This document shows positions 44,846 to 46,792 of a stretch of DNA of 47,040 nt, piece after piece. Where the stretch lies: contig MNXJ01000046.1 of the NCBI GenBank assembly GCA_001872455.1, forward strand, positions 1 to 47,040, read 5' to 3'. The position numbers were made by a program, and so were the translations under genes. Source of the stretch: Anaerolineae bacterium CG2_30_57_67. Its GTDB lineage: Bacteria; Chloroflexota; Anaerolineae; Anaerolineales; Villigracilaceae. The notes below the pieces were generated by a model, which worked only from the letters and a program-made list of their open reading frames with translations, was not told the origin of the DNA and ran no database searches. The stretch's first letter is position 1, and each line of letters opens with the position of its first letter.

Positions 44846-45542
44846 TGTCAGCCATCTCACCGTGAACTACGGCGCCATCGAAGCCGTGCGCGACCTGTCG
44901 TTTGAAGTCGCCGCCGGGCAGGTGGTGGCAATTATCGGCGCCAACGGCGCGGGGAAATCCACCACGCTCAACACCATCGGCGGAATTTTGAAGCCACGCA
45001 GCGGAAAAATACGATTTGACGGGCACGACATCAGCGCCATGCGCGCCGATCAGATTGCCCGGCTGGGGCTGGCTCAGGTTCCCGAAGGGCGCGAAGTGCT
45101 GGCGCCGCTGACGGTGGAGGAAAACCTGCGGCTGGGCGCGTATGTGCGCGCCGACCGGGAAGCCATCGAAAGCGATTTGCAGGCCATGTTTATGCGTTTT
45201 CCCATTCTCGAAAAACGCCGCCACCAACCCGCCGGGCTGATGAGCGGTGGCGAACAGCAAATGCTGGCGGTGGCGCGCGCGCTGATGGCGCGTCCCAAAC
45301 TGCTGACGCTCGACGAACCCAGCATGGGGCTTGCCCCGCTCATCGTCAACCAGATTTTTGAAATCATCAGCGAAATCCGCGCCGAGGGCGTCACGCTGCT
45401 GCTGGTGGAACAAAACGCCCGCAAAGCGCTGCAAGTGGCCGATTACGCCTATGTGCTGGAACGCGGCGCGCTGGCCTATGGCGGCCCCGCCGCCGAACTG
45501 CGCCAGGATGAGCGCATCGTGGCCGCCTATTTGGGAAATTAA
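44838..45542 (+). CDS. livF: Branched-chain amino-acid ABC ATPase LivF
   Basis: 234 residues from the ATG at 44838, which overlaps the livG end by 8 bases. Walker A GANGAGKSTTLNTIGG, signature LMSGGEQQMLAVARALM, Walker B LLTLDEPSMGLAP, H-loop position VEQN as usual in LivF. It completes the five-gene liv operon. The promoter of the histidine leader starts 4 bases after its stop. Confidence 0.95.
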   Translation: MLNVSHLTVNYGAIEAVRDLSFEVAAGQVVAIIGANGAGKSTTLNTIGGILKPRSGKIRFDGHDISAMRADQIARLGLAQVPEGREVLAPLTVEENLRLGAYVRADREAIESDLQAMFMRFPILEKRRHQPAGLMSGGEQQMLAVARALMARPKLLTLDEPSMGLAPLIVNQIFEIISEIRAEGVTLLLVEQNARKALQVADYAYVLERGALAYGGPAAELRQDERIVAAYLGN

Positions 45543-45545
45543 CCA

Positions 45546-45574
45546 TTGACGAATTGCGCCCCCACGGGTAAAAT
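45546..45574 (+). promoter_or_regulatory. Promoter of the histidine leader and hisG
   Basis: TTGACG (45546-45551), 17-base spacer, TAAAAT (45569-45574). The predicted start at 45581-45582 coincides with the leader-peptide ATG. Confidence 0.75.
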
Positions 45575-45581
45575 GCTGCCC

Positions 45582-45650
45582 ATGTTTAGACAACCATCTG
45601 CCCTGCATCATCATTTCATCTGCCCCCTGTCTGACCGAAGAGCAGGTTAG
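45582..45650 (+). CDS. hisL: Histidine leader peptide (22 residues)
   Basis: A 22-codon frame, ATG at 45582 and TAG at 45648-45650, with three consecutive CAT His codons at positions 9-11 (45606-45614). Its place between a strong promoter and a terminator before hisG is the arrangement of his-operon leader peptides. No SD can exist, because the predicted transcript starts at, or one base before, the ATG; translation would be leaderless. The peptide has no function of its own beyond ribosome stalling. It is too short for standard gene callers. Confidence 0.75.
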   Translation: MFRQPSALHHHFICPLSDRRAG

Positions 45651-45708
45651 TTTCGTTTACTAACCCACGTACCCCAGCCCTCGGTCAAAAGCCGGGGGTT
45701 TTTGTTTT
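45626..45708 (+). terminator. Histidine attenuator (antiterminator/terminator pair)
   Basis: The terminator stem is 45676-45684 with 45692-45700, 9 pairs and a 7-base loop, followed by TTTTTGTTTT. The competing antiterminator pairs TGACCGA (45632-45638) with TCGGTCA (45681-45687), 7 perfect pairs that use part of the terminator's left arm. A pre-emptor hairpin (45626-45646) can sequester the first strand, and a 7-bp hairpin GGTTAGT/ACTAACC (45645-45651/45659-45665) lies between. A ribosome stalled on the His codons would free the antiterminator strand. Confidence 0.75.
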
Positions 45709-45712
45709 GTAT

Positions 45713-45802
45713 GATACGAATGCAAATGGTAAATGGCGAGTGGTACTTCCCAATCTCCATTTACTCCTTTCCCCTCTCACTTTTCTCCTTTCTCTCCTCT
45801 CC
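45713..45802 (+). repeat. GAATG-type element and polypyrimidine leader of hisG
   Basis: ACGAATGCAAATGG, AAATGGCGAGTGG and the partial complement ATCTCCATTTACTCC, then a pyrimidine run up to the hisG ATG. It leaves hisG without a Shine-Dalgarno, as also seen for mutS. Confidence 0.65.
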
Positions 45803-46792
45803 ATGACCCGTCCACTCCGTCTTTCCCTCCCATCCAAAGGCCGCCTGGCCGAAGAAACCGTCAACTTTCTCAAAGACTGCGGCTTCAGCATTTACAAACC
45901 CAACCCGCGCCAATACGAGGCCAGCATCCCGGCCCTGCCCAGCGTCAGCGTCTTGTTCCAGCGTCCCACCGACATTGTGATTTCGGCGCGAAATGGTTCG
46001 GTGGATTTTGGCATCACCGGGCTAGATGTGCTGGCCGAACACGGCGGCCCAGATGGAGCGATTCTGCCGATTCATGCTGCGCTGGGGTTTGGTTCCTGCA
46101 GCCTGAACGTGATCGTCCCCGAAGCGTGGGCCACCGTCAGCCGCATGGCCGACCTGAAGCGGGTACAGGCCGAGGCCGGGCGTCCGCTGCGGGTGGCAAC
46201 CAAGTTTCCCGTCGCCGCTGCTCCTTTTTTCGCCGCGCACGGCCTGAGCGAGGTCAGCTTCATCGAGGCGGAAGGCACGCTCGAAATCGCCCCCACCATC
46301 GGCTATGCCGACCTGATTACCGATTTGGTCTCCAGCGGGCAAACCCTGCGCGATAACCGCCTGAAGTTGCTGGAAGACGGCCAAATTCTGGCCTCGCAGG
46401 CCTGTCTGATTGCCAACCGCGCCGCGCTGAAGGAAAACCCGGCGGCGCTGGCCGTTGCCCGCCAACTGCTGGAATTTATCGAAGCCTGGCAGCGCGCCCA
46501 AAACAACCTTTCCATTTTTGCCAACCTACGCGGCGCCAGCCCAGCGGAAATTGCCCAAAAAGTTTTTTCGCAAACCACCATCGGCGGGCTCAATGGCCCC
46601 ACCATCAGCGGTATTCTTCGCAAAAACGGCGACCCAAACTGGTACGCCCTGCACATCGTCGTCCAACGCGGCGAACTGTTTGCCGCCATCAACGAATTAC
46701 GCGCCATTGGCGGCAGCGGCGTGGTCGTTGCGCCGGTGACATATATTTTTGGTAGTGGTCAAGTAGCAAGTGATGCTTTGGCAAGATTGTAG
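45803..46792 (+). CDS. hisG: ATP phosphoribosyltransferase HisG, C-terminus altered by IS
   Basis: 329 residues from the ATG at 45803. HisG features: LSLPSKGRLAEETVNFL, DFGITGLDVLAEHG, VATKFPVAAAPFF, the PRPP-loop region EGTLEIAPTIGYADLITDLV, and a C-terminal ACT-like regulatory domain (ALHIVVQRGELFAAINELRAIGG), so it is the long, histidine-feedback form. It catalyses the first step of histidine synthesis, joining ATP and PRPP. The family ends with TYIF plus about ten residues; here TYIF (to 46750) is followed by 13 residues (GSGQVASDALARL) encoded by the end of an IS1-like element, which also supplies the stop. The catalytic part is intact, so it is probably active. Confidence 0.93.
   Translation: MTRPLRLSLPSKGRLAEETVNFLKDCGFSIYKPNPRQYEASIPALPSVSVLFQRPTDIVISARNGSVDFGITGLDVLAEHGGPDGAILPIHAALGFGSCSLNVIVPEAWATVSRMADLKRVQAEAGRPLRVATKFPVAAAPFFAAHGLSEVSFIEAEGTLEIAPTIGYADLITDLVSSGQTLRDNRLKLLEDGQILASQACLIANRAALKENPAALAVARQLLEFIEAWQRAQNNLSIFANLRGASPAEIAQKVFSQTTIGGLNGPTISGILRKNGDPNWYALHIVVQRGELFAAINELRAIGGSGVVVAPVTYIFGSGQVASDALARL

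Follow-up and report, generated by a model that had tools for sequence, protein, structure and literature searches.

The leader region upstream of hisG in Anaerolineae bacterium CG2_30_57_67 is very probably a ribosome-mediated transcription attenuator of the his operon, the leader peptide of which is predicted to start leaderless or near-leaderless. The leader is located in a DNA stretch of 47,040 nt, here referred to as the window, and combines sequence features by which classical attenuation is recognized, namely an ORF with control codons, an intrinsic terminator, and an excluding antiterminator that would be exposed by ribosome stalling, as indicated by complementarity, compensatory changes and a masking model. 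Sequence inspection and comparison document how the leader is built, that it is conserved, that its arms allow alternative pairing maintained by compensatory changes, and how its promoter is spaced. By the same comparison, the system is lineage-wide and, in the sample analyzed, restricted to the lineage.

Organization of the his leader

The elements of the leader are listed in Table 1. The initial annotation had described a promoter with a 17-nt spacer, a leader of 22 codons with three consecutive CAT codons, and hisG downstream, and all of these elements are present at the positions given. Its 7-bp antiterminator overlapping a 9-bp terminator with a T-run was confirmed as well; the complementarity of the two antiterminator arms has a z-score of -3.6 and was equaled in 0 of 100 shuffles.

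Table 1. Coordinates of the leader elements and of hisG in the window
Feature	Position	Strand	Sequence and description	Basis
-35 element	45546..45551	+	TTGACG	sequence
-10 element	45569..45574	+	TAAAAT, 17-nt spacer from the -35 element, 7 nt ahead of the leader ATG	sequence
Leader peptide ORF	45582..45650	+	MFRQPSALHHHFICPLSDRRAG followed by stop; 22 codons, ATG 45582, TAG 45648-45650; predicted leaderless	
His control codons	45606..45614	+	CAT CAT CAT, codons 9-11	sequence
Antiterminator 5′ arm	45632..45638	+	TGACCGA, within leader codons 17-19	duplex with 45681-45687, conserved His-codon spacing
Antiterminator 3′ arm	45681..45687	+	TCGGTCA, overlaps terminator 5′ arm and loop	perfect 7-bp complement of TGACCGA
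Intrinsic terminator	45676..45708	+	AGCCCTCGG-loop-CCGGGGGTT and T-run; arms 45676-45684 and 45692-45700, 9 bp including G-U pairs, T-rich sequence next	
Internal hairpin	45645-45651/45659-45665	+	GGTTAGT/ACTAACC, 7 bp, over the leader stop codon	between the antiterminator arms
hisG	45803..46792	+	first his operon gene; 3′ end replaced by IS1-type element	Pfam HisG PF01634 and HisG_C

A short ORF with three adjacent His codons occurs only once in the window when both strands are searched, and such an ORF arose in 2 of 2000 dinucleotide shuffles of positions 45541-45803. A chance origin of the leader was rejected on the basis of this frequency and of the comparison of the stems with shuffled and swapped controls.

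The hairpin over the leader stop codon (45645-45665) had not been mentioned in the initial annotation; its GGTTAG stem recurs in identical or close form in 12 of the 19 leaders listed. At 45725-45800, in the interval that separates hisG from the terminator, the window contains an inverted repeat (AATGGTAAATGG / CCATTTACTCC) and, after it, a C/T-rich stretch. At the end of the contig (46752-47040), a sequence encoding a fragment of an IS1-type transposase (DDE_Tnp_IS1) on the minus strand takes the place of the hisG 3′ end, and the last ~15 HisG residues are unlike those of relatives. In the relatives, hisD-, hisC- or hisB-like ORFs were recognized by eye downstream of hisG.

Conservation of the leader in Anaerolineae

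For the comparative analysis, hisG loci were gathered from relatives of the window and from named genomes, and after removal of duplicates 101 distinct upstream regions were obtained. A His-rich short ORF ahead of hisG is present in 96 of these 101 Anaerolineae regions, typically with 3-4 His codons; most of these ORFs were found by script and four (L049, L073, L085 and L095) were located by eye, L073 and L085 having scattered His codons only. The five regions that have no leader are L036, L061, L074, L094 and L100. An intrinsic terminator follows 19-51 nt past the leader stop codon and ahead of hisG in 94 of the 96 leaders. Relatives devoid of both the His run and the paired stems, which the initial annotation had named as evidence against its reading, were not seen; the comparison that it had proposed instead revealed the His run, the terminator and an antiterminator with compensatory changes. 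The cultured species carrying the element are Thermanaerothrix daxensis (L090), Ornatilinea apprima (L101), Longilinea arvoryzae (L106) and Levilinea saccharolytica (L112).

With similar criteria, the His leader was absent from all 40 hisG upstream regions taken from different orders within the class or different classes within the phylum, only 3 of which contain any terminator-like site. Loci from records titled Thermoflexus or Thermoflexales (L091, L104 and L110) also carry the His leader, which therefore extends beyond records with Anaerolineales in their title. A search with the pattern of a -10 element, an ATG and four His codons matched 84 of 151 genomes of the order, clearly above the reversed control; these matches include chance hits inside genes, and the search was excluded from the counts.

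Promoter spacing and start of the leader peptide

A TAnnnT motif is located 6-12 nt upstream of the leader start codon in 91 of the 96 Anaerolineae his leaders, and in 70 of these 91 the best -35 match is found 17 nt from the -10 element. The commonest distances between -10 element and start codon are 10 nt (44 leaders) and 7 nt (19 leaders), a distribution that leans in its exact values to a nearby -10 element because the choice of start codons during extraction favoured such an element, most leaders having a single plausible ATG. When transcription was assumed to begin 5-8 nt from the -10 element at a purine preceded by a pyrimidine, 5′-UTRs of 3 nt (49 leaders), 0 nt (18), 1 nt (12), 4 nt (8) and 5 nt (3) were predicted. 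Among these lengths (his leaders L001-L038 and L039-L118), 3 and 0 nt predominate and 2 nt is avoided.

A 5′-UTR of so few nucleotides (0-5 predicted) cannot accommodate a Shine-Dalgarno (SD) sequence. At 82 of the 96 leader starts, matches to the anti-SD complement do not exceed 3 nt, in contrast to the hisG starts, 90 of which show an SD-like match of at least 4 nt. The hisG start of the window itself is without an obvious SD sequence.

In the window, the -10 element lies directly ahead of the start codon and an SD sequence is absent, as in leaderless leader-peptide attenuators of the actinobacterial type. From the promoter, RNA synthesis is predicted to start on or next to ATG 45582, and the window leader is thus predicted to be strictly leaderless, the majority of its relatives near-leaderless. 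The leaderless start proposed by the initial annotation is supported with a qualification: a promoter at leaderless or near-leaderless distance is found in 91 of 96 leaders, but in many relatives the predicted 5′-UTR is ~3 nt instead of 0. This length follows from the 9-10 nt spacers that most relatives have, and strict leaderlessness may therefore not be general. In a scan for strong promoters covering 0.77 Mb of the genome, ATG codons were not clearly overrepresented in general at leaderless spacing; on this weak test with 117 promoter-like sites, leaderless starts look specific to these leaders and not genome-wide.

The attenuator might also be real and yet not leaderless, if the leader were translated from a longer transcript that derives from read-through of the upstream ABC-transporter operon or from a farther promoter, with an in-frame TTG/ATG start at 45546 or 45573. 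In the window and in several relatives, the leader frame indeed continues upstream across the promoter without a stop codon. The gene upstream of it extends to 45542, with no terminator noted ahead of 45546. Against this stand the near-fixed distance of TTGAC-17-TAnnnT to the leader ATG in 91 of 96 cases, which recurs at most argG and chorismate mutase leaders described below, and the usual lack of SD motifs at leader starts. Translation from a longer transcript is accordingly considered improbable, and initiation at or close to the 5′-end is the preferred reading.

Alternative pairing and compensatory changes

The segment between the last His codon and the terminator pairs with the 5′ arm of the terminator beyond its own shuffles, with a mean z-score of -2.2 and p ≤ 0.05 in 68% of 94 leaders. 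Native arm pairs are more stable than pairs swapped between species (mean -16.1 vs -13.2 kcal/mol; Wilcoxon p = 1e-12). The versions of the core helix that require a change on both sides comprise TGACCGA/TCGGTCA, GACCGG/CCGGTC, GGTCGGG/CCCGACC and GATCGGC/GCCGATC, and further compensatory versions are GATTCGGG/CCCGAATC and GAACCGGG/CCCGGTTC.

In 61 of 94 leaders the 5′ arm core starts at a distance of 14-21 nt from the last His codon, although the stop codon shifts: in some species the core forms the Asp-Arg codons ahead of the stop codon, in others the TGA of TGACCGG is the stop codon. As the placement of the arm relative to the stop codon varies, the conserved feature is the distance from the His codons and not the peptide. 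A conserved distance between His codons and arm is a requirement of a stalled-ribosome mechanism.

These observations also bear on the possibility that the strong terminator preceding hisG is constitutive, serving as an intergenic or transcript-end terminator with the His ORF being incidental. Such an arrangement is extremely unlikely, given that the His codons are kept in 96 of 101 upstream regions and are rarely produced by shuffling, that their spacing to the arm is conserved, and that the changes in the arms are compensatory.

Folding model of the switch

In the folding model, RNA covered by the ribosome was removed. When the ribosome occupied His codon 9 or 10 of the window leader, the model gave probabilities of 0.95 for the antiterminator and 0.00 for the terminator, while a ribosome at the stop codon gave a terminator probability of 0.96. 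Placing codon 11 in the A site led to a mixed outcome (terminator 0.65), so that the result for the window depends on the assumed edge of the ribosome footprint. In the absence of a ribosome, the window leader is predicted to be antiterminated (0.92).

A direct comparison of the stalled state with the stop-codon state suffers from a length bias and by construction favours the stalled state; it was not taken as evidence, and a control with shuffled leaders was used instead. For the modelled stall in 94 leaders, the sequestered fraction of the terminator 5′ arm was 0.77 vs 0.46 in shuffled leaders (p = 2e-17), and the mean terminator probability was 0.56 vs 0.92 in shuffled leaders. In some relatives the antiterminator is not the structure favoured at equilibrium, and for this reason, together with the footprint dependence in the window, the kinetics of folding matter.

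Proposed mechanism

From these features we infer the transcript start, the loading of ribosomes at the 5′-end, the stalling and the response to histidine. RNA polymerase would begin on or next to the A of ATG 45582; an RNA starting there would have no SD site, so that the ribosome would have to load at the 5′-end. When charged tRNA-His is scarce, the ribosome would stall at His codons 9-11 and cover the RNA up to about 45618-45624. The 5′ antiterminator arm at 45632-45638 would then be free to pair with 45681-45687 as soon as the latter emerges, which would take away the 5′ half of the terminator and allow transcription of hisG and the later genes. With enough histidine, the ribosome would reach the stop codon at 45648 and mask the arm at 45632-45638, the terminator at 45676-45700 would form, and transcription would end ahead of hisG. 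Since a leader without a ribosome is predicted to fold mainly as antiterminator, which makes the switch on by default, shut-off would need translation of the leader and efficient loading at the 5′-end. Transcripts derived from upstream, in which the ATG is not preceded by an SD sequence, would consequently escape attenuation.

Leaders upstream of argG, chorismate mutase and other genes

A scan for the same layout covered 1.83 Mb (~61%) of the genome from which the window originates and revealed two further amino-acid leaders, both outside the window. The first, MSPAVRFYFAFYFYGLRNSVAVGDA followed by a stop codon and a terminator, precedes a chorismate mutase gene (CM_1; L152 8304, G000:C34:8304), after which two DAHP-synthase-like ORFs were recognized by eye. 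The second, MFTTKSFPRSRRPQPTSPEKAGIFLFRMTR with Arg codons, a stop codon and a terminator, precedes argG (L185 15099, G000:C67:15099), with an argH-like ORF following argG, again recognized by eye.

In the relatives, an Arg-rich leader with terminator was found at 25 of the 26 argG loci with enough upstream sequence. A -10 element is located at 7-10 nt in 19 of these 25 leaders, a few being weak and lacking it (e.g. L236 and L244), and most contain an antiterminator of the AGAAGG/CCTTCT type (mean z-score -2.1). An aromatic leader with Phe/Tyr codons and a terminator is present at all 29 chorismate mutase loci analyzed in relatives, 22 of which have a -10 element at 6-11 nt; an antiterminator in these leaders was without statistical support (mean z-score -0.45). 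The spacing between -10 element and ATG is mostly 10 nt at argG and chorismate mutase leaders, too.

The argG leader of the L185 type possibly represents an undescribed arginine attenuator. It is an evenly balanced proposition that the his, arg and aromatic operons of Anaerolineales are governed by attenuators with leader peptides starting 0 or 3 nt from the RNA end, amounting to a regulon-wide dependence on 5′-end loading and perhaps including the first leader-peptide attenuator of arginine biosynthesis. On this regulon-wide reading, attenuation would be confined to transcripts that start at the promoter of the operon itself, read-through being the predicted outcome for a leader that is not translated.

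A further short ORF in leaderless layout, MSTQHLLRRLLKHHFFGTSVSTFWNVESRF with its stop codon, overlaps a terminator before a permease-like gene (L217 7596, G000:C14:47596), which by eye possibly belongs to the NCS2 uracil/xanthine family. With similar criteria, no such leader was found at 20 ilvB loci or at the trpE loci scanned. A T-box leader (RF00230) is present at the trpE locus of one relative (L284 2071-2395, minus strand), and tryptophan may therefore be handled there by another RNA switch.

This T-box indicates that the lineage uses other RNA switches, which raises the question whether the his leader operates by another RNA mechanism, such as a T-box, a riboswitch or a protein-bound terminator. 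This was judged very unlikely: no Rfam family reached the gathering score in the window, and around the leader just two chance-level matches were obtained at E ≤ 10. The identity of the window leader as a T-box (RF00230) was rejected, as no match to the covariance model was found. Attenuation by a translating ribosome remains the favoured explanation.

Comparison with known systems

The search with the Rfam His_leader model (RF00514), which the initial annotation had suggested as a check, gave no match around the leader, neither at the gathering score nor at E ≤ 10; the known covariance model therefore does not cover this leader. For leader-peptide attenuation in Chloroflexi or Anaerolinea, and likewise for leader peptides of arginine biosynthesis, no description was found in the openly readable papers searched; a 2015 search for His leaders in Actinobacteria is listed in PMC4833913. 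A published prediction put leaderless genes in Chloroflexi at just ~5%, occurring in 4 of 12 genomes (PMC3160421).

According to PMC9413887, His attenuators have been reported for Proteobacteria and some Firmicutes. The his attenuators of the Bacillus cereus group, Eubacteriales and Erysipelotrichales described there resemble the present one in their comparatively predicted His leader peptides and terminator/antiterminator structures, but belong to another phylum. In Actinobacteria, leaderless attenuation leaders are documented in S. lividans, among them TrpL1, LeuL and IlvL (PMC8079986), and leaderless polycysteine (cysteine) short ORFs are known from mycobacteria (Canestrari et al. 2020, PMC8764745, as cited in PMC13236596), whereas the hisD leader of C. 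glutamicum has no His leader peptide (PMC3896937). A leaderless leader peptide alone is thus not new. As proposed for the Anaerolineae, a leader peptide on a leaderless mRNA controls an amino-acid operon in these Actinobacteria, the amino acids and the phylum being different. As far as the literature searched shows, the combination of His attenuation with a leaderless start, the phylum and the arginine version are new.

The findings would extend textbook attenuation to Chloroflexota with about a hundred comparative examples, indicate that attenuation can be combined with leaderless initiation, and suggest an arginine attenuator. The element would also constitute a natural test of leaderless translation, as shut-off would be possible only with efficient ribosome loading on a 5′-UTR of 0-3 nt, and the four cultured species make it accessible to experiments. 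With the his attenuator of E. coli and Salmonella it shares the leader peptide with His codons, the mutually exclusive antiterminator and terminator, and the his operon downstream. It differs from the enteric system in its predicted leaderless or near-leaderless start without an SD sequence, in the number of His codons (3-4 vs 7), and in its single antiterminator, which is the predicted default structure when no ribosome is present.
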